Positions 5,010 through 29,440 of a DNA stretch of 64,000 nucleotides are shown here, piece after piece. A program made the position numbers and the translations under genes. The stretch is from contig CP006977.1 of assembly GCA_000508305.1 (NCBI GenBank), positions 900,621-964,620 of the forward strand, in the 5' to 3' direction. Origin of the DNA: Sulfolobus acidocaldarius SUSAZ. GTDB taxonomy: Archaea; Thermoproteota; Thermoprotei_A; Sulfolobales; Sulfolobaceae. The notes beneath the pieces are model-generated. The model made no database searches. It worked only from the letters and a program-made list of their open reading frames with translations, and was not told where the DNA came from. Position 1 is the stretch's first letter. Each line of letters starts with the position of its first letter.

Positions 5010-6575
5010 TCATCTTCTCCTTATTAGTAGTACTACAACAACCACGATAATGATCACCACTACGACCACAGTAGATATGATTCCTAAAGGTAATCCTGAA
5101 CTGGAGGAAGCAGGGATTGATGGAGATGTGGTGGATGATAGTGATTGTGTGGTCGTTGTAGAACTTTGTGAACTCGTTAAGGTAGAGGGTGGAACACTTG
5201 ATGAAGAAGTGGTGGACGTCGAAGTTGTGGTTGTTGATGACGTGGATGTAGTCTGGCTAGTGGTCTGAGTAGTAGTTGAACTTGTGGTTGACGTGGTGGT
5301 GGAAGACGTAGTGGAAGTAGTAGTTGATGTAGATGATGTAGAGGTTGTGGTAGATGATGTGCTTGTTGTCGTAGTACTTGAAGAATATGAAAACGTTGGC
5401 GTAGACACATTAATAAGCGAGATATATACATTATTAGTTTTAGTCAGCTGAATCTGATATAGATACCCATTAGAGTAAAAAGCCTGTAGTGGGTATAGAT
5501 ATGAAGAGGTTGAATTATATATAATATTCCCGTTAGTGTAGTTCACTAATAGGTAATTGTAACTATCCCTATTCTCTATTACATTATTAATTACCATATA
5601 ACCGGGTGCAAACGTAACTTGAGTCGGTAAATTCACACCGGGAATGGGGGTGACATTATAATTGAGGTTTTCTAAATTTAATTTAATCAAATTAGTCCCT
5701 ACTACAAAGAATGCTGTATTATTTTCAACTAAGCTTCCTGATGGGATTGTCCCACTGCTGGGAATTTCTTCTAATATTTTACCATTGCTAGTATTAATTA
5801 TCATTGTTGTTGTTGAATTCGAGACTATTAAGTAATCCTTTATCAATTCAGCCCCAGATAAACCGCTTAAGCTTATATTCCATTTACCCAACAGAGTTAT
5901 CTCTGATTTGAAATGTAAAGCTGAAGGGGTTACAGGACCTAGAAACGAAGAAATTAGTTGGGATGGTGGCGCTAAATAAATTATTAGCATATTGCCATAA
6001 CTAGAATTAATGAAACTATATACGGTCTGATTATAAAATCTATATATTACTTGGTTCGGAATATATAATACACTTTGATTACCAAGTAAGGTTATGTAAA
6101 TTAAACCGTGTTGGGTAGGATAAGCCACGGTATAGTTCCTGAATAACTGGGAGCCCACCACTTTAAGCTTCGATATTGTAGAGACATTACTATAGAATAG
6201 GTTCTTAAAAGTGCCCGAGAATAAGCTACTTAAGGCTGACCCATTTACATATATTGAGTTAACGACTGAGTATGAACTATTGAGAGGTATGACGGTTGAC
6301 TCTACACTGAAATTTATTGGAGGACTCACTGTTAGTATCTTAACTAAATTAGATGAGTTAACATAATACACACTAGAGGTATACGATATTCCTTGAAATA
6401 CATTAGAATACTGGTTAACTGCTAAGAGTATCCCGCTATTATAACCTTGGACATTAGTTACAATACCTGTAACTGAATATGTAGCCTGTGTCTGTAGCTC
6501 AACTGAAGATATAGTTATTACCGATAGTAATGTTGCCACAATAATTATAGAGATTATATTAACGATTCTCCTCAT
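5010..6575 (-). CDS. Membrane-anchored surface protein with Ser/Thr-rich stalk
   Basis: A 521-residue protein with an N-terminal signal peptide (about residues 1-28), a beta-rich ectodomain with many NxS/T glycosylation sequons, a Ser/Thr linker of about 100 residues (roughly 395-490) and a C-terminal membrane helix ending in RRR. This signal/ectodomain/glycosylated stalk/anchor arrangement is common among Sulfolobus exoproteins. The ectodomain has no enzyme motif that I recognise; short repeated strands suggest a propeller-like fold. It lies upstream of the polytopic protein 3476-4873 on the same strand, and the two may work together at the surface. Confidence 0.7.
   Translation of the reverse strand: MRRIVNIISIIIVATLLSVITISSVELQTQATYSVTGIVTNVQGYNSGILLAVNQYSNVFQGISYTSSVYYVNSSNLVKILTVSPPINFSVESTVIPLNSSYSVVNSIYVNGSALSSLFSGTFKNLFYSNVSTISKLKVVGSQLFRNYTVAYPTQHGLIYITLLGNQSVLYIPNQVIYRFYNQTVYSFINSSYGNMLIIYLAPPSQLISSFLGPVTPSALHFKSEITLLGKWNISLSGLSGAELIKDYLIVSNSTTTMIINTSNGKILEEIPSSGTIPSGSLVENNTAFFVVGTNLIKLNLENLNYNVTPIPGVNLPTQVTFAPGYMVINNVIENRDSYNYLLVNYTNGNIIYNSTSSYLYPLQAFYSNGYLYQIQLTKTNNVYISLINVSTPTFSYSSSTTTTSTSSTTTSTSSTSTTTSTTSSTTTSTTSSTTTQTTSQTTSTSSTTTTSTSTTSSSSVPPSTLTSSQSSTTTTQSLSSTTSPSIPASSSSGLPLGIISTVVVVVIIIVVVVVLLIRRR
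5110..5400 (-). repeat. Low-complexity Thr/Ser codon tract
   Basis: Imperfect repeats of Thr and Ser codons encode the stalk of the surface protein. The tract gives long spurious open frames on the plus strand (4957-5268) and in another minus frame (5177-5431). Length variation between strains would be expected. Confidence 0.7.
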
Positions 6576-9160: not shown

Positions 9161-9970
9161 CTACAAAAGCAAATTAACAACAGCATAGTCAATATGGTAC
9201 GTTATCTGTCTTTCCAATATTTCGGCTGGCTTATTTCCGACTGCCCCTACAGGTACGATCCATGTTCTCAACTCGATATTTCCAGTCTCCTCAAGCTTAT
9301 CATCGCTTAACTTAGCTAACTCCTCTCCTTTTCCTTTCTTCAATGTCTCCAGGATAAAGTTATCAAAATCAATGTCAATTTTACCATAATAGGGCGTTCC
9401 TGGAAAATGGGACAAACCTCCTGTACCAATTATAGCAACCTTTTCGTTCTCTGGTCTTTTCTTAGCTACAATTCTGGCAATAGCCCTACCCAACTCGAAG
9501 CATCTTCTTACAGGCATTTTAGGTTCCACGTTAGCATTTAAGTGGATAGGTACGATTGGAATTGAGTAATCCCTGAATATGTCCAATAAGGGTATGAAGA
9601 AGGCATGTGAAAGGGGTTTGTGCTGGGAGAAAGATGGGTCAAATCCCTCCTCTACTAAACCGAATAAAATGGATTTTGCTAGCTCGTAGTGGATTTCATA
9701 TTTTACTACACCTTTTTTAGGAACCCTGGCTTCAGCCTCTCTATCAACTATTACGCTAAGCATGGGAAAATTATCTAGGAAATATGATTCAAGATGATCA
9801 GGTGCTATTATTATTAATGCGTCAGGTTCAGCCTTTCTTATCCTCTTCCCTAACTCATATATAGCGTCATGTATCTTTTTTGTCTGTTCAGCATAAACTT
9901 GGGAATATGTTACCTCCTTTCCCAGTTGTGGAGCATGTGAACTACATGCTGCAGAAACTACCCTCCCCAT
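9161..9970 (-). CDS. Class III extradiol dioxygenase, LigB-type catalytic subunit
   Basis: A 269-residue LigB-fold protein. Likely Fe(II) ligands are visible: H12 in SSHAP, H59 in APDHLE and E233 in GNIELRTW, matching the two His and one Glu of LigB. A conserved GTGGLSHFPG loop is near residue 182. Such enzymes open catecholic rings next to the two hydroxyls, using O2. It ends the Rieske operon (alpha, beta, small protein, LigB), about 150 bases after the small gene, so it probably acts on the diol made by that oxygenase. A LigA-like gene lies 4 kb away at 13965-14258. Substrate cannot be told from sequence. Confidence 0.85.
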   Translation of the reverse strand: MGRVVSAACSSHAPQLGKEVTYSQVYAEQTKKIHDAIYELGKRIRKAEPDALIIIAPDHLESYFLDNFPMLSVIVDREAEARVPKKGVVKYEIHYELAKSILFGLVEEGFDPSFSQHKPLSHAFFIPLLDIFRDYSIPIVPIHLNANVEPKMPVRRCFELGRAIARIVAKKRPENEKVAIIGTGGLSHFPGTPYYGKIDIDFDNFILETLKKGKGEELAKLSDDKLEETGNIELRTWIVPVGAVGNKPAEILERQITYHIDYAVVNLLL

Positions 9971-10123: not shown

Positions 10124-10357
10124 CTATAAGGGCTCTAATCTCTGATACTTTTCCTTTATAACTTTTTGAACTAATTCTAAGATCTCCTTATCATCCAAAA
10201 GCGTAAGGAAATCTAACTCTAGGGGATCCAAGTAGATCTCCCTGTCAAACTTTGTAGACGATATCTTCAATCTAGAACCGTTTGCGCTGTTATCTATACT
10301 GACCCTGACATAGGCGAATTCGTTCATTAATTCAATCTCTTGGGTCACATGGAACAC
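10124..10357 (-). CDS. Small Rieske-operon protein A (paralogue of 18099-18362)
   Basis: A 77-residue acidic protein that starts two bases after the beta-subunit stop. It aligns end to end with the small protein at 18099-18362: both have NE[FY]A[FY]V near residue 13-25, NG-x-RL, and a shared block IYLDPLxLxxLT followed by an Asp/Glu-Lys segment. No Cys or His cluster is present, so it is not a ferredoxin. I know no family for it. Its fixed place after alpha and beta in two divergent operons suggests a third component or assembly factor of these oxygenases. Confidence 0.75.
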   Translation of the reverse strand: MFHVTQEIELMNEFAYVRVSIDNSANGSRLKISSTKFDREIYLDPLELDFLTLLDDKEILELVQKVIKEKYQRLEPL

Positions 10358-10359
10358 CG

Positions 10360-10857
10360 CTATAGGATAAAGCTCAAGTTCCTAGCCTTTAAAATGGTAT
10401 CTTGTATGATTACTTCCCTATACCTTATCTTGAATCTTTCATTATCTTTCACAATCTCGTCCTTCCTTCTTGCAAATATCATCTCAGGGCTTAGGTCACC
10501 TCTATCTCGATAGAAAATCAGGTTGCTCTTAACTATGTACGACCTATCCTTTCTATCTATTATCATAATATTTGAGACCGTTCTCATTGTGTGAGATGGT
10601 GGGTTCTCAGCCCATGCAGTCTCAACAAATAACCTATTCACTCTTCTCTCTAAACTTACTTTATCCTCATCTAAAATAGGAATCAGCTCTGCATTAGAAG
10701 TAAAATCCACAAGATAAACCTTATAGTTTACATCGTCAGTTAGGAGGGAAAACCAGTCCTTGTATTTTCTTTCATCCAGCATCTCAGCCTCTTGATACAG
10801 AAAATTGACTATAGACAGATACTCGCCATAGTTATACTCAGTCATCTCACTCACCAC
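10360..10857 (-). CDS. Aromatic-ring-hydroxylating dioxygenase, beta subunit
   Basis: A 165-residue protein of the NTF2-like (SnoaL-type) fold used by small subunits of Rieske dioxygenases. Family signatures are the N-terminal FLYQEAEMLDERKYKDW block and the central RRVNRLFVETAWAENPPSH-like block before an RxxxSNI strand. It supports assembly of the alpha3beta3 enzyme and has no catalytic residues of its own. Its start lies inside the end of the alpha gene (7-base overlap), showing translational coupling. Confidence 0.88.
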   Translation of the reverse strand: MVSEMTEYNYGEYLSIVNFLYQEAEMLDERKYKDWFSLLTDDVNYKVYLVDFTSNAELIPILDEDKVSLERRVNRLFVETAWAENPPSHTMRTVSNIMIIDRKDRSYIVKSNLIFYRDRGDLSPEMIFARRKDEIVKDNERFKIRYREVIIQDTILKARNLSFIL

Positions 10858-12137
10858 TCATTAAGGTATTGATACCATGTGGAGTAGAATCCTCTAAGGG
10901 ATACTTCACCATAATACTCACCAACAACCCCCTTAGCTCCGCTTCCTAGAACCTGATCTGCTTCCTTATCCATGCCTAATCCCCTCTGATAATTTAGCCC
11001 GAAATTGAATCCGTTTCTAAATAGTTTATACTGATTTTCATTTAACCTTTGCCAGACCTCACCGTCATCTTGCTCCAATAACCCACCTGGACCGAACTCG
11101 TGCATAGCTCTTCTAAATATCTCCTTCTTCGTTTCCACGGGAAGATCTTTAAATAACAATACACCACCTGCTAACTCAGTCTTTGTTGGACCCCTTGGAT
11201 GCCAAACCCTGAAAACTATGTAATTCCACGTGAAGTGGAACGAAAGATTAGGGAATATATGGAAAGGACCAAAGGGAAACATATTTTTAACAAACTCACC
11301 ATATTTTTGCACGAGTTTTTGACCTGCGTTATATACTTTATCCCTAAAGGGCATTATCCTCTCTATGTCTACTGCTGACCTGGCTGTACCTCCAGGTATT
11401 GACACTATACCATGTCCATTCCCTGGGTATATTGCACGTACATTATTGGTATACGGTCGCCTTAATCCAATATTAACTACAGATGCATGGGTAGAGGACG
11501 CATGATAAGCGTCTCCTGCAAAGTTCTCGATAGTCAACTTCCAGTTGACTGGTATTAGCCACCTATGTATACCTCCATACACCTCAAGATTCTCTCCTCC
11601 GTCAAACATATCCAATATCAAATCCAGGTATAACTTCATGTTCCCCAAAAACTCTTCCAATGGAACCGGACTATTGGAAAATGTAGCCCATATTCCTCCT
11701 TTATAAAACGCGATATTTTTAATCTCTTTGAGTCCCCACTCTTCCTTATTCAATATGTCCGTGTATGCTGGCTCGTAATATGGTACACCTACTAATTTTC
11801 CCTCAGTTGAAAATGTCCATCCATGGTATGGACATCTGAAGAACATTGAATTGCCTGAGGTCGCTCTACATAGTTTCATACCTTTATGCGGACAATAATC
11901 AATAAATGCTCTTACCCTACTGTCCTGATCTCTCACTACAATAACTGGAACTTCCCCCATAGTTGTTGTAAAATAATCTCCCTTCTGTTTGATCATTGAC
12001 TCAAATCCCAGGAATAACCATGTTTTCCTAAAAACCGTCTCTAACTCCCTCTCGTAAATATCTTCATCCACAAAAATTGAGATAGGTATAATACCCTTTT
12101 CAGGTGAAAAATTAGCTAACTTACTTTTTATGTCCAT
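10851..12137 (-). CDS. Aromatic-ring-hydroxylating dioxygenase, alpha subunit (Rieske)
   Basis: A 428-residue alpha subunit. The Rieske [2Fe-2S] ligands are C82-x-H84 and C102-x2-H105. The mononuclear iron site is in NFAGDAYHASSTH (D209, H212, H217), with a late acidic DDGE stretch near 357 that may give the third ligand. The enzyme adds O2 to an aromatic ring or oxidises a side chain using electrons from a ferredoxin/reductase, neither of which is encoded in the window. It heads a four-gene minus-strand operon (alpha, beta, small protein, LigB). Sequence is clearly different from the second alpha subunit at 16161, so the two likely take different substrates. Confidence 0.92.
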   Translation of the reverse strand: MDIKSKLANFSPEKGIIPISIFVDEDIYERELETVFRKTWLFLGFESMIKQKGDYFTTTMGEVPVIVVRDQDSRVRAFIDYCPHKGMKLCRATSGNSMFFRCPYHGWTFSTEGKLVGVPYYEPAYTDILNKEEWGLKEIKNIAFYKGGIWATFSNSPVPLEEFLGNMKLYLDLILDMFDGGENLEVYGGIHRWLIPVNWKLTIENFAGDAYHASSTHASVVNIGLRRPYTNNVRAIYPGNGHGIVSIPGGTARSAVDIERIMPFRDKVYNAGQKLVQKYGEFVKNMFPFGPFHIFPNLSFHFTWNYIVFRVWHPRGPTKTELAGGVLLFKDLPVETKKEIFRRAMHEFGPGGLLEQDDGEVWQRLNENQYKLFRNGFNFGLNYQRGLGMDKEADQVLGSGAKGVVGEYYGEVSLRGFYSTWYQYLNEW

Positions 12138-12270
12138 AACCTTTACCTCGTTATTATTTTTTATTAATATTTCATGATTATAAAAATTTTGTGGTTAAAA
12201 ACTATAACGAATTGTAATCTATAACTATAAGAATAATATATGTTTAACTATTTATATTTTTTGATAAGTG

Positions 12271-13851
12271 TTAATCTCTCTCCTTTAAGGCTCTTCTCAT
12301 TATTTTCCCTGAAGCTGTCTTAGGTAGCTCATCCACAAATACCACTTCTCTTGGGACCTTGAAGTTAGCTAACCTCTGCTTAACAAACTCAATGATGTCG
12401 TTCTCAGACACCCTGCCTTTATAATCGTTTTTTAAAACTACATATGCCTTAGGTATCTCTCCCCTGTACGAATCACTTTTTCCTACCACAGCCACTTCCT
12501 TTACGGCTGGGTGTTGATAGATAATGTCCTCCACTTCTCTGGGCCACACCTTAAAGCCTGACACGATTATCAAATCCTTTACCCTATCCACATAATACAA
12601 CCAACCGTCTTTATCGACCTTGCCTAGATCTCCTGTATAAACCCATCCATCCCTTATGGTTTTAGCTGTCTCCTCAGGTTTCTTCCAGTAACCCTTCATG
12701 ACGTGCGGACCCCTAACAATTATTTCACCTACCTCACCAGGTTCCAACTCCTTACCTGTTGAGTCCACTATTTTAACTTCGGTAAATGGTACAGGTTTAC
12801 CTATCGACATTGCATTAGTCTCGGGATCATAGGGAGCCCTCTCCTCAACGGGTTCCACAGAAATAGTTCCCGTCGTCTCAGTCATACCATATCCATTTCT
12901 GATATGCACTCCCGTAAGTTTTTCCCATTCATCAACGACCCGTTTAGGTAAGGGAGCTCCTCCAGAATATAACTTTTTAAAGGAAGAAAGGTCTCGCTTC
13001 TTAAAATCTGGATGGTTCATCAGCGAGATGTAGCCTGTGGCAGGTAATAAAGTAAAGGATACTTTCCACTTCTCTATTAATCTCAAAGCCTCTCCAGGCT
13101 CAAACCTATACATTATCATAAATGGTAATTGAGAAATGAGACTAGTTGCAGTTAGCACGATGCCTATGTTGTGAGACATGGGGGAGAAAATAGCCATAGT
13201 GTCTTTTTCATCTAGTTTAAAAGACTGCTTTATTGTCATAGCGCCAAAGAAGAGGTTATAATGAGTGTACATAGCACCTTTAGGCTTACCTGTAGTCCCT
13301 GAGGTATAAAGTATAGTTGATAACTCTTCTTCTGTAGCGACATGAACATCTCTTAGTTCCCTGTTGTCTTTTATAATATACATATAATCATGGTCTGCTC
13401 CAAGAGGATATTGCCTAGAGATACTAGAGAGATATGGGGGTACTTGAGAAAGGTACTCTAAGCCAGTTGTGGTAATCACCATTTCAATCTTAGTCCTGTC
13501 AAGTATGGGTAGCAGGTTGCTCTTAACCTCTGTCTCTAGACCTATCAGAACCTTACACTCTGAGTCGTTTAAAAAATACTCTAGCTCATGGCTTTTGTAC
13601 ATGATATTCAATGGCACTATTATACCTCCTATAGCCCATGTAGCCAATTCAGTTATCAAAAACTGTGGTATATTCTGTAAGTATATGCACACTCTATCTC
13701 CCCTACTTATTCCCCTCTCCACCAGATAGTTTCCTAAAATTTTTGCATGTCTTGTAATTGAAAGGGTCTGTATTGCTTCATCAAAATAATAGATGATTAT
13801 ATTTCTCTTTGGTGCTTCAAAAATATCTTTATACACAGGACTGAATTCCAT
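12271..13851 (-). CDS. AMP-forming acyl-CoA ligase (fatty acid/aromatic acid type)
   Basis: A 526-residue member of the ANL superfamily. The ATP loop is YTSGTTGKPKGAM (near residue 185), the A5 motif is NGYGMTETTG, the hinge is in YYVDRVKDLIIVSGFKVWP, and the C-terminal catalytic Lys is in KTASGKIMRR. It activates a carboxylic acid with ATP and CoA. Placed between the Rieske/LigB operon and the LigA-like gene, it probably activates an aromatic acid or a ring-cleavage product. It is divergent from the LigA-like gene with a 113-base shared promoter region that has an inverted repeat. Confidence 0.9.
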   Translation of the reverse strand: MEFSPVYKDIFEAPKRNIIIYYFDEAIQTLSITRHAKILGNYLVERGISRGDRVCIYLQNIPQFLITELATWAIGGIIVPLNIMYKSHELEYFLNDSECKVLIGLETEVKSNLLPILDRTKIEMVITTTGLEYLSQVPPYLSSISRQYPLGADHDYMYIIKDNRELRDVHVATEEELSTILYTSGTTGKPKGAMYTHYNLFFGAMTIKQSFKLDEKDTMAIFSPMSHNIGIVLTATSLISQLPFMIMYRFEPGEALRLIEKWKVSFTLLPATGYISLMNHPDFKKRDLSSFKKLYSGGAPLPKRVVDEWEKLTGVHIRNGYGMTETTGTISVEPVEERAPYDPETNAMSIGKPVPFTEVKIVDSTGKELEPGEVGEIIVRGPHVMKGYWKKPEETAKTIRDGWVYTGDLGKVDKDGWLYYVDRVKDLIIVSGFKVWPREVEDIIYQHPAVKEVAVVGKSDSYRGEIPKAYVVLKNDYKGRVSENDIIEFVKQRLANFKVPREVVFVDELPKTASGKIMRRALKERD

Positions 13852-13886
13852 AGTTCATATAAAATTGATTAGTAATGAATAAAAAC

Positions 13887-13915
13887 TTTACTTTTTTGTG
13901 ATAGATAAAAGTAAA
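13887..13915. promoter_or_regulatory. Inverted repeat between the ligase and LigA-like genes
   Basis: TTTACTTTT (13887-13895) and AAAAGTAAA (13907-13915) form perfect 9-base arms around an 11-base spacer. The site sits in the 113-base divergent promoter region, about 35-65 bases upstream of the ligase start. It could be an operator serving both genes; no binding protein is known. Confidence 0.4.
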
Positions 13916-13930
13916 ACTACGTAAACAAAG

Positions 13931-13938
13931 CTTTTAAA
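13931..13938 (+). promoter_or_regulatory. TATA box of the LigA-like gene
   Basis: CTTTTAAA lies about 30 bases before ATG 13965, the spacing expected for a start site just upstream of the start codon. Confidence 0.5.
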
Positions 13939-13964
13939 CCATTAAATGATGTATTAAATTTGAA

Positions 13965-14258
13965 ATGCCAAATAAATTATATGATTTTTCAGACCCAAGA
14001 CTATATAATTTACACAAGTTACTAAGAGACGTAGTAGATAATATAGAAATAAGGGAGAGGTTTTTTAGATCGCCTAACGAAGTAGCTAAAATGTATAATG
14101 TGAGCGAAAATGAGAAGGAGATTATTTTAAGAGCAGATCCTAAAGAGATGTTTGATTACGGTATAAATCCCTATCTAATCCATGACTATCGGCTAGTCGC
14201 TCTAGGTATAGGAGATAGACCACCAGAAATACAGGTAGTATATAAGGAGAAAAAATAA
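13965..14258 (+). CDS. LigA-like extradiol dioxygenase small subunit
   Basis: A 97-residue, mostly helical protein resembling LigA, the small subunit or lid domain of class III extradiol dioxygenases. The family pattern is a helix ending in RERFFRSPNEVAKMYNVSE, then an LRADPKEMFDYGINPYL helix-turn, and a short tail. LigA caps the active site of LigB. The only LigB in the window is 4 kb away on the other strand (9161), behind the Rieske genes. The pair may still form one enzyme, or this protein may serve another LigB. The gene stands alone and has its own TATA box. Confidence 0.75.
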   Translation: MPNKLYDFSDPRLYNLHKLLRDVVDNIEIRERFFRSPNEVAKMYNVSENEKEIILRADPKEMFDYGINPYLIHDYRLVALGIGDRPPEIQVVYKEKK

Positions 14259-14406
14259 TCTTAGTCGAAGATCTTTTTCTTTTTTCTAGCATTTAATTTT
14301 AGTATTCTCGCATTGCAAAATTATCCCGATAAATAACAGGAAACTCAGGAATTTAAAGGATATTTTAGGACAATAAAAAATCCTGAACTTAATTTTTCTT
14401 CCTTTA

Positions 14407-15729
14407 TCAGAGTTCTAATTGCCTGTCTTTAGTCTCTATAATTAACGCTATTGTTGATATTATCGAAATTATTGCGAATATAACTATTATAGTGGATAGA
14501 TATGGCCATGCTTTACTGTATCCTCCTACAGCATCTATTATAGCTGGAGCACCGAAACCTGCTATAAATCCAATTATTAGACCAGTTAGTTGGTAACTTA
14601 GTCCTGACCCCGAGTATCTATATCTTGCAGGGAAATTTTCTGTTAGACTGGCTGAGTATGCACCTGCTACTGCTTGTATTGATCCCCAGTACAATACGAA
14701 ACCTAAAATAATCAGACCGAGACTTTTAGTACTTAAGAGGAGGAAGCAGGGAAAGGCAAATATTGCAATAAGTGCATTCCATATAATCATCATAATTTTT
14801 CTTCCGACCCGATCGGCTAAGTAACCTGTAAGTATAATCAATGGCGATATTACGACCGATGCAACTCCTAATGCCAGGTTTCCGGTTATAGGACTAAATC
14901 CGATACTTCCTAAATATTGAACTGCATAAGGTGCTATTGTTATTAATCCTCCTCCAAAAAATGGTAATCCTACTAATATCAAGCCTATTATTTGCCTAGT
15001 GTTCTTGCTAAATACAGTAACCGCAGGGGTCTTTTCAATCATCTTTTTGTTAACTAGTTCGGTGAAAACGGTACTTTCATATGTAATATATCTGATAATA
15101 ACACCAAAAATTACTAGGACTCCTCCAATAACAAAAGGAATCCTCCAACCTATGGTAACGAAGGAAGGTCCTGTGAGTACTGAGGCAGCATATACTGCTA
15201 ATGACGAGACCCCTAGACCTAGAGGTAAAGTCATAGGAACCAAAGAGGTCCAGAAGCCTCTATTCCCAGATTTAGCATACTCTGAGACCCATGTAAGTGC
15301 ACCACCGTATTCGCCACCTACTCCGATTCCGAATATTATTCTCCAAAGGAAGACTAGATATGCTGCTGCTATACCAATTGAAGCTGTTCCTGGAGTAGCT
15401 GAAAGTGCGAATTGTGACCCACCCATTAGAATCAGTGTTAATATAAGTGTATACTTCCTTCCACGTTTATCTCCTATGTGTCCGAAGATAAAAGCACCAA
15501 TTGGTCTTGTTAAGTAAGACACAAGGAATGATAAGGCAGTAACATATACAGCTATACTAGAAGGTAGACCTGAAAAATACACTGTAGGCCAGACTGTGGA
15601 TGCTGCGGCACTAGCTAAGAAGAAATCATACCAATCGACAAAAGTACCTATAGCAGATGCGGTTGCAACTCTTCTAAGGTGAGATTCTGGACTTATCTCC
15701 TTACCTATAGGCTTATCTGGCTTCGCCAT
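14407..15729 (-). CDS. MHS-family MFS transporter (organic/aromatic acid:H+ symporter type)
   Basis: A 440-residue, 12-helix transporter. It has the metabolite:H+ symporter signatures: ATASAIGTFVDWYDFFLA at helix 1, RPIGAFIFGHIGDKRGRKYTL-like loop 2-3 (here split by a conserved GDKRGRK), and GVGGEYGGA in helix 4-5. This family carries citrate, alpha-ketoglutarate, shikimate and benzoate-type acids with protons, suiting the acidic medium. Located between the two Rieske gene sets, it may import the aromatic acid. A paralogue at 18446-19766 is frameshifted, so this may be the only working copy here. Confidence 0.88.
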   Translation of the reverse strand: MAKPDKPIGKEISPESHLRRVATASAIGTFVDWYDFFLASAAASTVWPTVYFSGLPSSIAVYVTALSFLVSYLTRPIGAFIFGHIGDKRGRKYTLILTLILMGGSQFALSATPGTASIGIAAAYLVFLWRIIFGIGVGGEYGGALTWVSEYAKSGNRGFWTSLVPMTLPLGLGVSSLAVYAASVLTGPSFVTIGWRIPFVIGGVLVIFGVIIRYITYESTVFTELVNKKMIEKTPAVTVFSKNTRQIIGLILVGLPFFGGGLITIAPYAVQYLGSIGFSPITGNLALGVASVVISPLIILTGYLADRVGRKIMMIIWNALIAIFAFPCFLLLSTKSLGLIILGFVLYWGSIQAVAGAYSASLTENFPARYRYSGSGLSYQLTGLIIGFIAGFGAPAIIDAVGGYSKAWPYLSTIIVIFAIISIISTIALIIETKDRQLEL

Positions 15730-15840
15730 TTTTATCTACTTTTAGTGTATATTCAGTGCATATATAAGTCTTTTTTATAATAAAACATTATTTATATATC
15801 TTTTACTACATGATAAATATTGAAGTTTTTGCTAAACCGT

Positions 15841-15856
15841 TCTGTTGAGCAACAGA
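15841..15856. promoter_or_regulatory. Perfect 16-base palindrome, candidate operator
   Basis: TCTGTTGAGCAACAGA has 7-base perfect arms around AG. It lies between the divergent transporter and Rieske operon, about 112 bases from one start and 305 from the other. The symmetry fits a dimeric repressor or activator; which one is unknown. Confidence 0.45.
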
Positions 15857-16117
15857 GATTTTCATTATTGCTAAAATTAACTAAGGATTAATACTGATGA
15901 ACATTACACTATAGAAGGTGCCACCAACTAAGAACTAAATAATTATTTTCTGACTTCTTTCCTAAAGTTAAAATTTTCAATTTTTATCTGAAACGAATAT
16001 TAAGATTCTTTACTGACACTAAATGTTTAAACGATATCTAGGTATGAATCTACACAAAAATCAATTCCACATGTAATCCAAACATGCTTAACATATTAAT
16101 CAAAATAATAAGGAAGG

Positions 16118-16126
16118 TTTTTATAC
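16118..16126 (+). promoter_or_regulatory. TATA box of the second Rieske operon
   Basis: TTTTTATAC lies about 40 bases before TTG 16161, predicting a start site near 16148 and a short leader that contains the Shine-Dalgarno-like AGGTGGG (16148-16154). Confidence 0.5.
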
Positions 16127-16160
16127 TTAGTTTTTGACTCAATATTAAGGTGGGTAAGCA

Positions 16161-17564
16161 TTGGAAGATCTACAGGAGAAAGATAAATTTTCAGACACTC
16201 TGGAATTCTTAGATAGGGCTAGAGAGGATCTGGATGCAGGCGAACTACCTTTAGGGATATTTGCTAGACGAGACGTATTTGAACTTGAAAACATAAAATT
16301 TTGGCCAAGAGTTTGGCATTTTCTAGGACACGAGGGAGAGATTCCTAATCCAGGAGATTATATACTGAGAAATATTGGACCCAGAAATCAGGTAATAGTG
16401 GTTAGAGGAGAAGACGGAGAAATAAGGGGTTTTTTAAATGCCTGCAGACACAGGGGAAGAGCTTTCTGTAAGACGGAAAAGGGAAATGCGGCGTATTTCA
16501 GATGTCCTTATCATTTTTGGACATACTCTAATAAGGGAGAGCTTGTAGGGGTACCACAAGATAATACATTCAAGATCAATAGACGAGAATATAACTTGAT
16601 ACCTGTTAGAGTTGAGAGCTACAGGGGCTTTCTGTTTGGAAATATGGATCGTAAGGCTGAAAAATTAGAGGACTATTTAGGCGAATATAAGTGGTACATT
16701 GATATAGCTATTAGAGGGGGAGAGCTAGAAGTATATAAGAGCCCTATAAGGTGGATCGTAAACATGAATTGGAAAGCTCCTGTAGATAATTTTGGTAGTG
16801 ATTCATATCACATTGCATTTACCCATAGGTCTACCTATCAAATAAGCGCCAATCCTCTTAGGTTAGAGGATGTTGGTTTATCTCCTCCTGAGGGAGTCCA
16901 AAAAAATGTAGGATTTTCAGGTTACCAATTTGCCTCTGAGAAAGGACATGGTGGTGGAATTACCTCGTTTTACGATATAACTCCTGAAAATTTAGATAAG
17001 ATTGATAAGTTGGACGTGCCTGCTAAGATATATGAGATCTACCCTAAAAATACACTTGATGTATTATCGGAAAAATTGAGTAGTGAGCAACTTAGGGTAT
17101 TAAAACTAGAAATGCTTACCCTAGCATTGTTCAGAATTAGAGTGTTTCCAAATTTTGCCTTTATACTGCACTCCCTTAATGCTGGCGACTCTGAACAGAA
17201 GTATACACAGGATTACCTGGCTAGGTTATGGAGACCTGTAGACTATGATAAAACAGAGGTTTTCACACTATGCATGATACCATCATTTGCAGATGAGAAA
17301 TATAAGAGGGAAAGCTTTAGGCAGTGTGTATTTTTACAGGGACCTGCTGGAATACTAGATAACGATGACGTTATGAATTGGATGTCTCAGACCGAGAATT
17401 CCAAGAATTCTCTCGACTTAAATATGGCTTTAAAGCAGAGACAAAATGAAGGGACAGTCGATAACTTTCCATTGCCTCACAGTGAAATGAAAGTATATAG
17501 AGAGCCTTCCGACTGGTCATCAAAGGCGTTTTGGAGGAAGTACTTTGATCTCATGCTCAGGTGA
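16161..17564 (+). CDS. Second aromatic-ring-hydroxylating dioxygenase, alpha subunit (Rieske)
   Basis: A 467-residue alpha subunit. Rieske ligands are C95-x-H97 and C115-x2-H118; the mononuclear iron site is NFGSDSYHIAFTH (D214, H217, H222) with DNDD near 404 as a possible third-ligand region. It is about 40 residues longer than the first alpha subunit and only distantly similar outside the motifs. The start is TTG 16161, chosen because GGTGGG lies seven bases upstream and no earlier in-frame start fits. It heads the operon alpha, beta, small protein. Ferredoxin and reductase must come from elsewhere. Confidence 0.9.
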   Translation: MEDLQEKDKFSDTLEFLDRAREDLDAGELPLGIFARRDVFELENIKFWPRVWHFLGHEGEIPNPGDYILRNIGPRNQVIVVRGEDGEIRGFLNACRHRGRAFCKTEKGNAAYFRCPYHFWTYSNKGELVGVPQDNTFKINRREYNLIPVRVESYRGFLFGNMDRKAEKLEDYLGEYKWYIDIAIRGGELEVYKSPIRWIVNMNWKAPVDNFGSDSYHIAFTHRSTYQISANPLRLEDVGLSPPEGVQKNVGFSGYQFASEKGHGGGITSFYDITPENLDKIDKLDVPAKIYEIYPKNTLDVLSEKLSSEQLRVLKLEMLTLALFRIRVFPNFAFILHSLNAGDSEQKYTQDYLARLWRPVDYDKTEVFTLCMIPSFADEKYKRESFRQCVFLQGPAGILDNDDVMNWMSQTENSKNSLDLNMALKQRQNEGTVDNFPLPHSEMKVYREPSDWSSKAFWRKYFDLMLR

Positions 17565-17570
17565 TGAAAC

Positions 17571-18083
17571 ATGAATTCCATGAAGATTAACTGTGATGAT
17601 TATCTCGAAGTGCTTAATTTTTATTACAGGGAAGCTGAATTATTAGATTTTTGGAAGTACAGAGAGTGGCTCCAATTAGTAACCGACGACATAGAGTATA
17701 TCTTTTATTCCAGACTAAATATTGAGTCCGATTCTCCATCATCACAACTTGGAGCACCTATAATTATGGATAACAGAGTCTTGTTGGAGAAGAGAATAGA
17801 GAGACTTTATAGTGAATATGCATGGGCAGAAATTCCTAAGTCATTCATCAGGCACCACATATCTAACATAATGATAACTGAAGTAGAGAAGGAGAACCAA
17901 ATCAGAGTTTTAAGTAGTGTACTACTCTTTAGGCATAAACAGGATAATCCCTACTATGAACTCATGTCTTATGAAAGGCATGATGTTCTCAGAAGAATAG
18001 ACGGAAGATGGAAACTAGCTAAAAGAGAAATAATACCCGATTTTAGTTTATTCATCACAGATAACCTTTCTAACATATATTAG
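17571..18083 (+). CDS. Second ring-hydroxylating dioxygenase, beta subunit
   Basis: A 170-residue NTF2-like small subunit. The N-terminal FYYREAELLDFWKYREWL and central EKRIERLYSEYAWAEIPKS blocks match the beta subunit at 10360-10857 in place and kind. It starts six bases after the alpha stop. A second in-frame ATG at 17580 is an alternative start. Its role is structural in the alpha/beta oxygenase. Confidence 0.87.
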   Translation: MNSMKINCDDYLEVLNFYYREAELLDFWKYREWLQLVTDDIEYIFYSRLNIESDSPSSQLGAPIIMDNRVLLEKRIERLYSEYAWAEIPKSFIRHHISNIMITEVEKENQIRVLSSVLLFRHKQDNPYYELMSYERHDVLRRIDGRWKLAKREIIPDFSLFITDNLSNIY

Positions 18084-18098
18084 AGGAGAGAACGAGAA

Positions 18099-18362
18099 AT
18101 GAATATTACGAACAAATATGTACCTTTGACAGACTATATCGAGATAAAAAACGAATATGCATTTGTTTTAATTAGGTTGGTGTCTACGGGTAATGGTATT
18201 CGTCTTGAGATTTATTCACCTAACTTTGGCACAAAAATATACTTAGATCCATTACAACTAGAGTCCTTGACAATTGCAGATGAGAAGGATTTTGAAACCT
18301 TGATAAACGTACTGTACAATGGGAGGAAACACACTGATGGGGACAGAGACCAATATCCATAG
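18099..18362 (+). CDS. Small Rieske-operon protein B (paralogue of 10124-10357)
   Basis: An 87-residue protein, third in the second Rieske operon, 15 bases after the beta gene, with GAGGAGAG as ribosome-binding site. It aligns with the 77-residue protein of the first operon through NEYAFVLIRL, NG-x-RL and IYLDPLQLESLT. The tail (after about residue 75) is charged and not conserved. It has no metal-binding motif. No known family comes to mind. Repeated linkage suggests an oxygenase accessory subunit. Confidence 0.75.
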   Translation: MNITNKYVPLTDYIEIKNEYAFVLIRLVSTGNGIRLEIYSPNFGTKIYLDPLQLESLTIADEKDFETLINVLYNGRKHTDGDRDQYP

Positions 18363-18445: not shown

Positions 18446-19766
18446 ATGGTAGAGAAAGGTAAAGAAAAAGGGGAAGCTGTAACTAGGAGAGACCTGTTAA
18501 AAGTATCGAGTGCCGCATTAGTAGGGACAACTATAGAGTGGTATGACTTCGTTGTTGCTGCTTCAGCAGCTGCTGTAGTATGGCCATATGTATTCTTCCC
18601 CGAGGAAAACCCCGCTGCTGCATTGGTCTCTTCACTTATAACATATAGTATAGGCTTTTTCGTAAGACCTGTAGGTGCACTATTATTTGGACATTTTGCC
18701 GATAAATATGGAAGGAAAAGTGTTCTAATTTTAACACTCCTCACCATGGGTGCGGGAACATTAGGAATAGGTTTAACACCATCCTATGCGGCTATAGGAA
18801 TACTGGGAGCTGTACTGGTAGCTTTGTTTAGACTTTTACAGGGATTAGGATTAGGCGGAGAATGGGGCGCAGCCTCCACATTTGTGACAGAATTCGCAGC
18901 GAAAAATAGGTTTAGAGCTTTTTTTGGGCGAGTTGGGTACAACTAGGAGGACCTGTAGGTCAACTGGCAGGAAATGGTGCAGTTACGTTAGCTATTCTTC
19001 TAATGCCCAGAGCTCAGTTCTTAGACACTGGGTGGAGAATATTGTTCTATATAGGGGCAGCAATAATAGTTATAGGTGTGATATTGAGATACATGTTCTT
19101 GAGACACCGTTGTTTCAACAGATCCTGAAAAGTCAACAAGTATCGAGAGTACCTTTGGTAGAGTTGTTTAAGAAACAATGGCTAACGATCATAATCTTAG
19201 CTATAAGCTGGTGGTATATAAATACGTTAATATGGTCATTAACCAGTTTTGCTCAGGGATACATTACGTTGGTGAACCGTAGTATTCCCGCATATATAGG
19301 ACCATTTAGCGGAGTGATAGTAGGGGCTGTAGGAATTGTAGGTGTTATTATAGGAGCATATCTAGGCGACATTCTAGGTAGAAAGAAAGTACTGGTATCA
19401 TCTGCAGGTGCTGCGGCGTTATTTTCCTATCCATATATTTTTCTCCTATCTCAAGGTACAATAGTTTCATTATTCATTGGTCAAGCAATCATGGCATTTA
19501 TTATCCACTCAGGATATGCTGTCTTATCAGCATTCTTTGCTGAACAGTTTCCAACTAGATATAGAGCATCAGGGACAGGGTTTGTTTATCACATAGCAAA
19601 TCCCTTCTCAGGAGGAATAGCGCCGGCACTTTCTGCTGTATTTACCAGTATTTATGGTCCCTTGGGAGCAGTACCATATATTGGGGCTATAATGATAGCA
19701 TATTCTGTTACGTCAGTTATAGCAGGCTTATTTACCAAGGAGACATCAAAAGTGGAATTAAAGTGA
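18446..19766 (+). pseudogene. MHS-family transporter, broken by two frameshifts
   Basis: Homologous along its length to the intact transporter at 14407-15729: GTTIEWYDFVVAASAA at helix 1, GHFADKYGRKS in loop 2-3, GLGGEWGAA in helix 4-5, and FPTRYRASGTG near helix 11. The frame changes at a run of seven T (18919-18925), continues as FWASWVQLGGPVGQ in the next frame, and changes again near 19097 before LETPLFQQ. Both shifts equal one missing base, and all three segments together make a full ~440-residue transporter. Either the gene is dead or the sequence has two errors. It follows the second Rieske operon, so import of that substrate may be lost. Confidence 0.8.
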
Positions 19767-19917: not shown

Positions 19918-21084
19918 ATGATATCGGGTTTTTCAAGTAAGCTCTTTAAAACCTATGAAGGTAGCGTATTTGACTTGATATCATTAGCTACGAGAGAGGC
20001 ATTAGATATGGCTAAATTAGAGATAGGAGACGTGGATGGGTTTGCAATGACATTTTTCCCGGGTCTCTTTGACGGTAAAGGCTACTTATTCTTCCCATTG
20101 CACCAAATAACACATTACTTAGGAATCAAGGCAAGATACATGGATCTTGTAGAATTTGGTGGTCCCTCGATCCTAGCCATGATATATAGGGCTGAAAAGG
20201 CAATAAGGGCAGGGGAAGCACAGAATGTATTATGTATAGCTGGAGGAATAGCCTCATTTATAAGAGAAAAAGGACCATACAATAACGTAATAAGCAAACT
20301 CTACCCATACATAACCTCCAACACATTTGAGGACTTTTATGAAGTGTACGATAAGATGGATCCAATAACCCATTACGCTTTAGTAGCAGATAGGCACAAG
20401 AGATTATTTGGGACTACAGACGAACAGAGGGCATTACTGGTAGTCAAACAAAGGAAAAACGGCTTAAATAATCCAAGAGCTCTATTTAAAAACCAGATAA
20501 CAGTAGATGATGTCATAAGCTCTCCAGTGGTAGCAGATCCACTTCACTTATTTGAGGTGGTTTATCCCATAGATGGATTCCATGCGTTTATTGTAAGTAG
20601 AAAAAACAAGGAGCTCAGACCAGTTGAGATTTTGAATTATGGCGAAATGCATTGGCCATCAGTTCCTGCAGAATGGGATATGGATATAACATATACACCC
20701 ACTATACAGAGCGTTAAGATTGCTAATGTAGATCTAAATAAGATTGATGCGTTCCAGCTGTATGATGCTACCAGCATCGGTGTTCTTACACAGATAGAGG
20801 ACTTGGGGCTTGTCGAGAAAGGGAAGGCTGGAAAATTTATTGAGGAAAATGACATATATTATCAGGGCAATATACCAATGAACACTGGAGGTGGGGCTTT
20901 ATCTCAAGGACAACCCGCATATATGAGCGGACCGCTAATGCTAGAAGAAGCATTACTTCAGTTAAATTACATGGCGCAAGGAAGACAGGTAAAGGACGTT
21001 TCAAAAGTCTTGATAAATGGTGTGGGAGGAGGTTTGGCAGGAAGAAATGATGCAATAACAATTGTTTTAGGTGAAAAGAAGTGA
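19918..21084 (+). CDS. Thiolase-fold protein lacking catalytic Cys and His (Ltp2-type retro-aldolase candidate)
   Basis: A 388-residue protein of the thiolase/SCP-x family, with KARYMDLVEFGGPSI where thiolases carry the nucleophilic Cys (here Gly81-Gly82) and NTGGGALSQGQP near residue 322 where thiolases have GHP (here GQP). The C-terminal GVGGGLAGRNDAI loop is kept. Without Cys and His it cannot be a classical thiolase. In actinobacterial steroid degradation, Ltp2 aldolases have the same fold and work with a DUF35 partner. The next gene here is a DUF35 protein with overlapping start, so a retro-aldolase acting on a beta-hydroxyacyl-CoA is my best reading. Confidence 0.8.
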   Translation: MISGFSSKLFKTYEGSVFDLISLATREALDMAKLEIGDVDGFAMTFFPGLFDGKGYLFFPLHQITHYLGIKARYMDLVEFGGPSILAMIYRAEKAIRAGEAQNVLCIAGGIASFIREKGPYNNVISKLYPYITSNTFEDFYEVYDKMDPITHYALVADRHKRLFGTTDEQRALLVVKQRKNGLNNPRALFKNQITVDDVISSPVVADPLHLFEVVYPIDGFHAFIVSRKNKELRPVEILNYGEMHWPSVPAEWDMDITYTPTIQSVKIANVDLNKIDAFQLYDATSIGVLTQIEDLGLVEKGKAGKFIEENDIYYQGNIPMNTGGGALSQGQPAYMSGPLMLEEALLQLNYMAQGRQVKDVSKVLINGVGGGLAGRNDAITIVLGEKK

Positions 21085-21443
21085 ACCTAAATAGCTACCT
21101 GGAGTTGAAATCTACATACTATAAGCACTTTGAAAGAGACGAGTTGCCTTACATGTACTGCAAAAAATGCCATACTAAATTCTATTACCCTAGGAGTGTA
21201 TGCCATAACTGCCTTTCTACCGATCTAGAAATACTGATTAGTAAAGGATTAGGCAGAATTTACGCTGTAACTAAGTTTCCTAAAATGGAGCAATCACCGG
21301 TTTTCGGAATAATTGAGATGGAGGAAGGATTTAAGTTCTACACTAATGTCATTGGAAAAGATCCTAAGTCAGGCAATAGAGTAAAAGTAGTTTTCATGGT
21401 TAAGGGAAACAGAAAATATCCTGTGGCTCAGATTATAGAGTGA
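21081..21443 (+). CDS. DUF35 (zinc ribbon plus OB-fold) partner of the thiolase-like protein
   Basis: A 120-residue protein. The zinc ribbon is YCKKCHTKFYYPRSVCHNC (C-x2-C-x11-C-x2-C, residues about 27-45), followed by an OB-fold domain that begins GLGRIYAVT. DUF35 proteins bind thiolase-like enzymes and acyl-CoA; with Ltp2-type partners they are needed for activity. The GTG start at 21081 overlaps the stop of the preceding gene, so the two are made together. Confidence 0.87.
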   Translation: MNLNSYLELKSTYYKHFERDELPYMYCKKCHTKFYYPRSVCHNCLSTDLEILISKGLGRIYAVTKFPKMEQSPVFGIIEMEEGFKFYTNVIGKDPKSGNRVKVVFMVKGNRKYPVAQIIE

Positions 21444-26976: not shown

Positions 26977-27942
26977 ATGAGGACAAAGATTATAGTGGAG
27001 ACCGGGATATTAAACGTCAATAGCCCTAAAGTTAAAGAATTAGAGAGTGAGATAAGAAAGTTAGCAGATATAATAATTTTAGACCCATATGACAATGAGG
27101 AGAAATGGGCAGAGTCATGCGAAGGAGTAATAGCTATAGTGGACAGAAAAGCCAGAATAACAAAGAAAATTATGTCGTCGTGCAGTGATCTAAAGTTAAT
27201 AGCTAGGACAGGAGTAGGTGTAGACGAGACTAGGGTAGATCTAGCAGAGGCAAAAAGGAGAGGAATCGCAATTACCTATAACCCTGGAGTGAACTCACCT
27301 TCAGTTGCAGAGTTCACCTTTACATTAATTCTCTCCTTGTACAAGAGGATATTTAAAATAACTAACCTAGTTAAGGAGGGAGAGTGGGCTAAGGGACAAA
27401 ACATATTCACCTATGAACTTTTCAATAAAACGCTAGGAATAATAGGTTTAGGTAATATCGGAAGAAGAGTTGCTAGAATAGGAAAGGCTTTTGAGATGGA
27501 AGTCCTAGGATACGACCTCTATATCAAGAAATCTGATGAAGGGATAAGATTAACGGATTTATCAACTCTATTAAAAGAATCAGATATAGTAACAATTCAT
27601 GTACCGTTAACACAGGAAACAAAGAACCTTATAGGAGAAGAGCAGATAAGGTTGATGAAACCCAATGCTATTATAATTAACACCAGCAGGGGAGGAATTA
27701 TTGATGAAGAAGCGCTCTTAAAGGCGCTGAAAGAGAAGAGGATTGCAGGGGCTGGGTTAGATGTCCTTGCACTGGAACCGCCAAACCCTAACAACCCATT
27801 ATTTAGCCTAGACAACGTTATAATAACGCCGCATGTTGCAGGAGTAACCCATGAGGCTGCCGAGAGAGGATTTATAGGAGCCTTAACTCAAGTTCTTAAC
27901 CTACTACAGGGCAAGCCCCTCACTAACGTATTTCCCCTTTGA
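26977..27942 (+). CDS. D-2-hydroxyacid dehydrogenase (phosphoglycerate/glyoxylate reductase-like)
   Basis: A 321-residue NAD-dependent dehydrogenase. The nucleotide-binding loop GLGNIG is near residue 157, with an Asp (GYDLY) following the second strand, favouring NAD. Catalytic Arg is in NTSRGGIID, Glu in the LALEPPNPNNP region and His in ITPHVAG. No C-terminal ACT domain is present, so it is the short type. Operon context (LmbE-like, RraA-like aldolase, molybdopterin hydroxylase) points to catabolism of a hydroxy acid rather than serine synthesis. Confidence 0.87.
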   Translation: MRTKIIVETGILNVNSPKVKELESEIRKLADIIILDPYDNEEKWAESCEGVIAIVDRKARITKKIMSSCSDLKLIARTGVGVDETRVDLAEAKRRGIAITYNPGVNSPSVAEFTFTLILSLYKRIFKITNLVKEGEWAKGQNIFTYELFNKTLGIIGLGNIGRRVARIGKAFEMEVLGYDLYIKKSDEGIRLTDLSTLLKESDIVTIHVPLTQETKNLIGEEQIRLMKPNAIIINTSRGGIIDEEALLKALKEKRIAGAGLDVLALEPPNPNNPLFSLDNVIITPHVAGVTHEAAERGFIGALTQVLNLLQGKPLTNVFPL

Positions 27943-28022
27943 GAGAATACAACACTGCTACACATTACTGTATAGCAATATTTATTAACAATTTAAATAT
28001 AATATTTATCGGGAGGAGATCA

Positions 28023-28742
28023 TTGAACGTAAAACTCCTAGTTATAAGTGCCCATATAGGAGATTTTGTTTGGAGAACTTCTGGTGTTTTAGCGAAATAT
28101 ATTAAGAGTGGTAAACCTGTCCAAGTTGTCTCATTGACATTTGGAGAGAGAGGAGAGTCTCCAGGGGCGTGGAGAAGAGGAGCTAAGAGTGTTGAGGAGG
28201 TGAAGAAGATTAGGAAAGAAGAAGCTGAATGTGCTTCTAAAGCATTAGGAGGGGTTCCATTGGAAGTTTTGGATTGGGGAGACCATCCCTTAATTATAAA
28301 TGACGAGAGATTGTTAAAATTGGCTGAAGTTATTCGAAAATATAGACCTGAAATAATCGTTACCCATGGACCTGATGACAAGATAAGACCAGACCATGTT
28401 GTAACTGCCGATGCCGTTTTAGCTGCTGTCAGATTAGCAGCCTCTGATGGAGTACCTATAGACATTCCAACAATTGCTGAACCAAAAATATTCGGGTTTG
28501 ACCCACATGTGGGAGAACAGGCAGGATTTTATCCTCACATTTACATAAACATAACAGATGTGTATGATTCAAAGGTCAAAGCCATGAACTGCCTTGAATC
28601 GCAAAAGGGAGAGGTTGACTACTACTCAACCAGAGATGCACTAAGAGGTCTTCAAACAAGAAGATTTGGCTGGAAGAATTATTACAAATATGCAGAGGCA
28701 TTTTACATGTATTATCCAATTATAGGTGAGGACTTCCCATGA
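28023..28742 (+). CDS. LmbE/PIG-L-family deacetylase-like protein with altered active site
   Basis: A 239-residue protein of the LmbE/PIG-L fold. The usual AHPDDE signature reads AHIGDF (residues about 10-15): the zinc-binding His and second Asp stay, but the general-base Asp is Gly. The second metal region reads THGPDDKIRPDHVVTADAV, with its His kept. I chose TTG 28023 because GGGAGGAG ends four bases upstream; a longer frame from 27939 starts inside the previous gene. Members remove acetyl groups from amino sugars and related compounds; whether this one is active is open. The next gene overlaps its stop. Confidence 0.82.
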   Translation: MNVKLLVISAHIGDFVWRTSGVLAKYIKSGKPVQVVSLTFGERGESPGAWRRGAKSVEEVKKIRKEEAECASKALGGVPLEVLDWGDHPLIINDERLLKLAEVIRKYRPEIIVTHGPDDKIRPDHVVTADAVLAAVRLAASDGVPIDIPTIAEPKIFGFDPHVGEQAGFYPHIYINITDVYDSKVKAMNCLESQKGEVDYYSTRDALRGLQTRRFGWKNYYKYAEAFYMYYPIIGEDFP

Positions 28743-29440
28743 AGCCTGTAATTGTAAGAAACATACCTAGATCCCCAGAGGACTCAAAAATAACCGAAGT
28801 GCTAAAAGAGCTAGGCGTAGCAACAATCGCTGAGTCACAAGAGAAGACCGGTCTATTAGATCCATCAATAAAACCTATACAAAGTGGAGCTAAAATAGCT
28901 GGAACTGCTGTTACAGTGAAGTGTTTTGACGGGGATAATTTGATGTTACATGCAGCATTAGAACTGGTTAGACCGGGGGACATAATAGTCCTAACTACCT
29001 ATTCTGGAAACTCTATGCATGGAATGTTTGGTGAGTTGCTTGCGACTGCATGTAAAGTAAGGGGAGTAGTTGGTCTAATTACTGATGCAGGAGTCAGAGA
29101 TGTAAATGTAATTAGAGAAATGAAGTTTCCCATCTGGTCTAGATACATTACCGCGCTAGGAACTTCTAAGAATAGACCAGGATGGGTTAACGTACCGATT
29201 GTAATAGGAGGAATTCACGTTAAGCCTGGAGACTATGTGGTTGCAGATGATGACGGCGTAGTAATCGTTCCTAGAGAGAACGTAACAAAGGTGATAGAGA
29301 ATGCCAGGAAAAGAGTTGAGAGTGAAGACAATGTAAGGAAAAGACTATTAGAAGGGGAATTATCACTGGACATTTATAACTTCAGACAAGTGATAAAATC
29401 TTTAGGAATAGAGTATGTGGAGAAGTTAGAGGGGGATTAA
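28739..29440 (+). CDS. RraA-like/4-hydroxy-4-methyl-2-oxoglutarate aldolase family protein
   Basis: A 233-residue member of the RraA/HMG aldolase fold. GELLATACKVRGVVGLITD is followed by AGVRD; Arg and Asp of GVRD are the residues that bind substrate and metal in class II HMG/CHA aldolases, and VVADDDGVVIVP closes the domain. An aldolase that yields pyruvate or oxaloacetate fits a catabolic operon. About 70 extra C-terminal residues form helices. The ATG overlaps the LmbE stop (ATGA). Its own stop at 29438-29440 lies inside the N-terminal coding frame of the next gene. Confidence 0.83.
   Translation: MKPVIVRNIPRSPEDSKITEVLKELGVATIAESQEKTGLLDPSIKPIQSGAKIAGTAVTVKCFDGDNLMLHAALELVRPGDIIVLTTYSGNSMHGMFGELLATACKVRGVVGLITDAGVRDVNVIREMKFPIWSRYITALGTSKNRPGWVNVPIVIGGIHVKPGDYVVADDDGVVIVPRENVTKVIENARKRVESEDNVRKRLLEGELSLDIYNFRQVIKSLGIEYVEKLEGD

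Follow-up and report, generated by a model that had tools for sequence, protein, structure and literature searches.

A small PhtU-family protein in the Rieske oxygenase operons of Sulfolobus and of bacteria

Two small genes behind archaeal Rieske oxygenases

The window analysed here, a stretch of 64,000 nucleotides (nt) from Sulfolobus acidocaldarius SUSAZ (contig CP006977.1, positions 900,621 to 964,620), carries two operons, A and B, for Rieske-type ring-hydroxylating oxygenases (RHOs), and each of them has a small third gene directly behind beta. Both operons encode alpha/beta oxygenases with the Rieske CxH..CxxH and the 2-His-carboxylate motifs. The six genes are listed below by window position.

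10124..10357, minus strand: small protein A, PhtU-like third gene of RHO operon A (77 residues, GTG start; paralogue of small protein B, AlphaFold2 fold predicted)
10360..10857, minus strand: RHO beta subunit A (PF00866, E 3.6e-27)
10851..12137, minus strand: RHO alpha subunit A (Rieske and Ring_hydroxyl_A domains; CxH..CxxH at residue 82, DxYH..TH at 209)
16161..17564, plus strand: RHO alpha subunit B (Rieske and Ring_hydroxyl_A domains; CxH..CxxH at residue 95, DxYH..TH at 214)
17571..18083, plus strand: RHO beta subunit B (PF00866, E 4.9e-29)
18099..18362, plus strand: small protein B, PhtU-like third gene of RHO operon B (87 residues; paralogue of small protein A)

It was found that small proteins A and B share 26 of 61 residues (43% identity, E 2e-16), far above chance. 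The pattern IYLDPLxLxxLT is common to both (IYLDPLELDFLT / IYLDPLQLESLT), as are NE[FY]A (NEFA / NEYA) and NGxRL (NGSRL / NGIRL). In operon A, on the minus strand, the alpha and beta genes share 7 nt and a gap of 2 nt separates beta from the small gene; in operon B, on the plus strand, 6 nt lie between alpha and beta and 15 nt between beta and the small gene. The identity of the two alpha subunits is 30%. The original prediction, made from the letters of the window, had described paralogous small proteins that directly follow alpha and beta, diverged alpha subunits and an absence of iron-sulfur ligands, and all of this was borne out: each small protein has one His and no Cys. Its phrase "both Rieske oxygenase operons" is right for the window but not for the genome, where a third alpha/beta pair (L065, outside the window) has no small gene. 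A search of the 2.06-Mb single-contig genome found exactly two small-gene copies, A and B.

By profile homology, the window proteins are members of the PhtU family. The archaeal profile A1, built from ten Sulfolobaceae members, aligns over 70 columns with the bacterial profile A4, which includes the pht-type members L073, L074, L084 and L085 (hhalign probability 99.1, E 7.6e-19). The window proteins also occupy the same place behind beta as PhtU, but they are about 25-40% identical to the bacterial members, they are without the N-terminal extension of the phthalate group, and no ferredoxin gene was seen next to their genes.

In three papers, phtU is named as an open reading frame of unknown function in actinobacterial phthalate clusters (PMC10434107, PMC10134610, PMC4964388). 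In strain MBM it lies downstream of phtAb in an upregulated cluster, and its role is left undefined there (PMC10134610); the locus L105 (Mycobacterium sp. MBM) probably belongs to the strain of this phtBAaAbUAcAdCR cluster. The same paper, from 2023, likens the MBM cluster to that of Arthrobacter keyseri except for phtU (PMC10134610). Despite the implied lack, the A. keyseri phthalate record NZ_AF331043 has a family member behind beta (L073:5896-6234). In work on Rhodococcus opacus R7, the name padAc is given to a hypothetical protein (PMC7434839). Searches of the open-licence literature turned up no account of the family as a general one and no proposal for its function. Within that literature, the word "undescribed" in the original prediction does not hold for the actinobacterial phthalate-operon branch and holds for the general family and its role.

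The family in plasmids and genomes

A tblastn search of 72,556 plasmids with the query P0001 gave three weak Rhodococcus matches (E 0.004, 0.9 and 0.9), all three within Rieske oxygenase clusters; a family search of genome contigs with the same query gave no match, and an alignment of archaeal members alone offered no sufficiently conserved stretch. Searches seeded by the Rhodococcus relatives reached 37 and 52 plasmid records. Alpha and beta were present in the small-gene cluster in all 20 plasmid regions opened, among them the A. keyseri pRE1 phthalate cluster, the R. jostii RHA1 pad cluster, the Geobacillus JF8 biphenyl plasmid, a cluster of naphthalene type from R. opacus B4, and regions of Thermus oshimai and the haloarchaeon Salinigranum. 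The small gene stands directly after beta in 15 regions, first in the run in four, and further along the run in one (R. pyridinivorans YF3). The pht-type operons have the order alpha, beta, small, ferredoxin, reductase; the four first-gene regions run small, thiolase, OB-fold or second thiolase-type gene, alpha, beta. The annotation of the small gene is "hypothetical protein" in 19 regions and "dihydrodiol dehydrogenase" in one. R. pyridinivorans YF3 was considered as a member without a Rieske oxygenase and ruled out, since its run of genes, followed further up, includes alpha and beta; a Rhizobium LysR match (E 0.7) was rejected. Beta is widespread on plasmids (243 records with a match across all groups, Proteobacteria included). 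On proteobacterial plasmids tblastn found no convincing small match (one chance match), proteobacterial genomes not having been searched with the profile. Going by these searches, plasmid-borne proteobacterial oxygenases seem to do without the small protein.

The wide scan compared the bacterial alignment A4 with 84,980 species and returned 204 relatives, of which the 79 most query-like loci were kept, an uneven sample. They span Actinobacteria, Thermus/Meiothermus, Hydrogenibacillus, Thermogemmatispora, Acidobacteria, Armatimonadota, Thermoplasmata and a Thaumarchaeota bin. All 79 contain alpha and beta. The small gene starts within 150 base pairs (bp) downstream of beta in 74 of 77 measured loci (the exceptions are L094, L097 and L115), with a 4-nt overlap in 20. 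L151 and L164 stood outside the 77 because of long frames, and both were within 13 bp in another measurement; an apparent fusion in L151 was rejected, because the long frame there is GC-rich and simply stays open, running over the real following gene. A [3Fe-4S] ferredoxin homologue occurs in at least 40 of the 79 loci, many of which end early, and a Rieske ferredoxin homologue, sought with one query, in none. The company of the small protein is mostly that of type V oxygenases, a class defined by a [3Fe-4S] ferredoxin and a GR-type reductase, with the phthalate dioxygenases of A. keyseri, RHA1 and PYR-1 among its standards (PMC2358900). The window enzymes resemble type V oxygenases (PhtAaAb, PhdAB, NidAB) in the Rieske and 2-His-carboxylate motifs of alpha/beta, and the bacterial relatives of their small proteins travel with [3Fe-4S] ferredoxins.

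In an even sample of 198 Actinomycetota genomes, the small gene was found in 18 and beta in 28, and every one of the 18 small-gene carriers also has beta (p 8.5e-19); the sample includes its own centre, G410, known beforehand to hold both. With beta at E 1e-10 or better, 22 genomes remain, 18 of them with the small gene. The 25 small matches correspond to 22 genes, because the genes of G549, G484 and G451 each hold two tandem copies. Two-domain tandem proteins of the family number three by profile, all actinobacterial (L201, L202 and L208), and one was seen by eye in a haloarchaeal locus (L079:4800-5264). Beta lies within about 1.5 kb of the small gene in 20 of the 22 genes (G465, about 2.3 kb; G581, about 3.5 kb), and in G554 the two are on opposite strands.

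Profile A1 was applied to 31 Sulfolobaceae genomes. It gave ten small matches in six of them (E 1.6e-24 or better), and beta (PF00866) was found in 13 genomes with 25 matches; all six carriers are among the 13 (Fisher p 0.0023). Nine of the ten small genes adjoin a beta gene. The tenth, in G011 (L014:6809-7801), stands alone downstream of a transposase-like fragment, part of which reads as N. Three lineages are visible in the family Sulfolobaceae: A, B, and a third (C) with alpha on the opposite strand. A match in a seventh genome, G020 (E 0.09, in a 469-residue frame), was rejected as chance. Across the phylum, 398 genomes gave believable small matches in G000 and G011 only; those in G050 (E 0.004) and G281 (E 0.001) were likewise rejected as chance. 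A G028 match (L017), inside a 796-residue frame, was rejected on the same ground.

The original prediction took the family to be archaeal, which was not borne out, as most of the members found are bacterial. It also named wide occurrence without Rieske genes as grounds for giving up the proposal; this check spoke against refutation, beta being present in 18 of 18 actinobacterial and 6 of 6 Sulfolobaceae carriers. The family is real, conserved and specific to Rieske oxygenases.

An accessory component and the alternatives

What might such a protein do? No Pfam or NCBIfam model was reached at its curated cut-off by the small proteins. Two or more Cys occur in only two of 78 relatives. A ferredoxin or other electron carrier was rejected for want of cluster ligands; having no metal ligands, the small protein cannot carry electrons. 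AlphaFold2, run on 60 sequences (A5), predicted four strands followed by two helices (mean predicted local distance difference test score (pLDDT) 86.8, predicted template modelling score (pTM) 0.68). Searched against the PDB with Foldseek, this model had no significant match (best E 0.33). PUR repeats (Z 5.7, 3n8b) and PC4 (Z 5.1) aligned best, with Z below 8, the level that the tool regards as meaningful. The predicted fold is weakly PUR/PC4-like: the bbbb-a arrangement is shared, and tandem copies occur in the small family, but the scores are weak, the small family is acidic, and the likeness is one seen in the predicted fold. PUR proteins use their repeats in pairs. Since the small family too has tandem copies, a dimer is plausible. 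The fold searches gave no match to known Rieske-complex proteins, which is uninformative either way.

The reading that I prefer, at roughly even odds (about 0.5), is that the PhtU family is a dedicated accessory component that assembles or stabilises Rieske oxygenases, mostly those of type V with [3Fe-4S] ferredoxins. The small protein would bind to alpha-beta, probably in the form of a dimer or tandem pair like that of PUR proteins, would help alpha-beta to assemble or stay assembled, and would be dispensable for the chemistry in vitro. The family itself, its adjacency to beta, its co-occurrence with beta, the lack of ligands and the acidity were observed here; physical binding, dimerisation and an assembling or stabilising role are what I infer. 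Of the third subunit or assembly factor in the original prediction, what is supported is a third component that is conserved in Rieske oxygenase operons and has no redox role.

Several observations weigh against this reading. At the R. opacus B4 locus, which has a small gene, alpha (1042 bits) and beta (331 bits) match 2B1X over their whole length, a Rhodococcus naphthalene dioxygenase structure that shows alpha and beta chains. The phthalate-type alpha of L105 matches 9JP5 (phthalate 3,4-dioxygenase; alpha and beta chains) with 808 bits, and the small family has no match among PDB chains. Both structures I take to be alpha-beta hexamers without other chains. Purified NarAaAb of Hydrogenibacillus N12 was active with PhtAcAd, no third protein being named in the available text; the enzyme comes from a thermophile, yet its optimum was 30 C (PMC11176777). 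With these structures and an active NarAaAb, the small protein is therefore seemingly unneeded for turnover in vitro. For 15 of the 25 Sulfolobaceae betas, no small gene was detected immediately downstream (a search made partly at relaxed thresholds), and the alpha tree needs eight changes of the small label at best fit, with four forced; having long branches and a midpoint root, the tree was used for the patchiness of the label only. Thus, the small protein is dispensable in some lineages. The alpha, beta and small genes of operon B share one reading frame and were folded as a single read-through chain of 733 residues, using alignment A7 (the misaligned A6 and A9 were set aside and A8 was unused). 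The model was poor (mean pLDDT 65.2, pTM 0.57), and no interface can be claimed from it. In view of the structures and of NarAaAb, a role in assembly, stability or coupling fits better than that of a tight subunit.

A coupling role could take the form of a docking adaptor, a loosely bound protein that fits the oxygenase to a [3Fe-4S] ferredoxin, or to an archaeal one, where other oxygenases use a Rieske or plant-type ferredoxin. The ferredoxin counts of the wide scan, the pht-type gene order, the definition of type V given above and the proteobacterial plasmids, which carry beta genes but no convincing small match, all point this way. However, the WAY2 operon pairs the small protein with a Rieske ferredoxin, NarAaAb works with PhtAcAd in an account whose available part does not mention the small protein, and no ferredoxin gene was seen by eye beside the window operons; on balance I hold the adaptor to be rather unlikely.

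The small protein might instead serve the pathway apart from the oxygenase, for example as a partner of a nearby dihydrodiol dehydrogenase, hydrolase or thiolase. This would suit the four regions where it comes first, adjoining a thiolase with alpha further on, and the single dihydrodiol dehydrogenase label. It is improbable in view of the neighbours, among which alpha and beta are constant and ferredoxin, dehydrogenase, hydrolase and thiolase vary. The PUR-alpha and PC4 matches could also suggest a nucleic-acid-binding autoregulator, which would bind DNA or RNA and control the operon. Besides the weakness of these matches, all 60 members tested are acidic (isoelectric point 4.2-6.6), which speaks against nucleic-acid binding, and the family accompanies one kind of enzyme, yet the regulators alongside differ (IclR, GntR). 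I regard autoregulation as very improbable.

Pathway context and meaning of the family

Around the two operons, the window has the following further genes.

9161..9970, minus strand: class III extradiol dioxygenase of LigB type, downstream of small protein A (domain match)
12271..13851, minus strand: AMP-binding (CoA ligase-type) enzyme, upstream of operon A (PF00501, E 2.5e-85)
13965..14258, plus strand: LigA-type subunit (PF07746, E 4.2e-6)
19918..21084, plus strand: thiolase-like protein, downstream of operon B (domain match)
21081..21443, plus strand: ChsH2-type zinc ribbon protein, likely the OB-fold partner of the thiolase (PF12172, E 6.1e-7)

The kit of the window thus comprises a CoA ligase, both oxygenases, a thiolase with a ChsH2-type zinc ribbon, LigB/LigA, PIG-L and RraA-like proteins, and part of the same kit is found in Rhodococcus and Streptomyces runs. 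It resembles the ibuprofen genes ipfABDEF in bringing together a CoA ligase, a Rieske oxygenase, a thiolase with its partner and an extradiol dioxygenase, a likeness drawn from the published description of the pathway (PMC9195938). No ferredoxin gene lies beside either window operon on inspection by eye, the rest of the genome not having been searched for ferredoxin or reductase. Along with LigB and LigA, the window contains a 2-hydroxyacid dehydrogenase, a PIG-L protein and an RraA-like aldolase (26977-29440), a set that suggests an archaeal lower pathway of 4,5-cleavage (protocatechuate/gallate-like). In Thermus oshimai (L078), a PIG-L protein and a 4-carboxy-4-hydroxy-2-oxoadipate aldolase are likewise near the oxygenase. 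The major facilitator superfamily transporter gene behind small protein B (18446-19766) is divided between two frames that overlap, 18446-18946 and 18924-19766, which looks like the effect of a frameshift. Elsewhere in the window, a protein of 521 residues (5010-6575) combines an extended repeat region rich in Ser and Thr with a hydrophobic C-terminus.

The family is wider than the archaea, with one branch already named phtU, and it merits its own Pfam entry. A broader picture is possible, which I hold only tentatively: type V oxygenases of Bacteria and Archaea may be four-protein systems of alpha/beta, ferredoxin, reductase and a gamma component, the PhtU family, which would fall away during purification and be missing from reconstitutions, and which would hold the oxygenase together or couple it to [3Fe-4S] ferredoxins. 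The phthalate, naphthalene and biphenyl oxygenases of Gram-positives and thermophiles are of value for bioremediation and biocatalysis, and they have been expressed as alpha-beta alone. In one such attempt, JF8 NahAcAd was inactive in Escherichia coli (PMC7023095), which missing electron donors could explain. If the partner does raise yield, stability or electron coupling, weak reconstitutions would become explainable, and a phthalate-operon gene of unknown function would gain a testable role.

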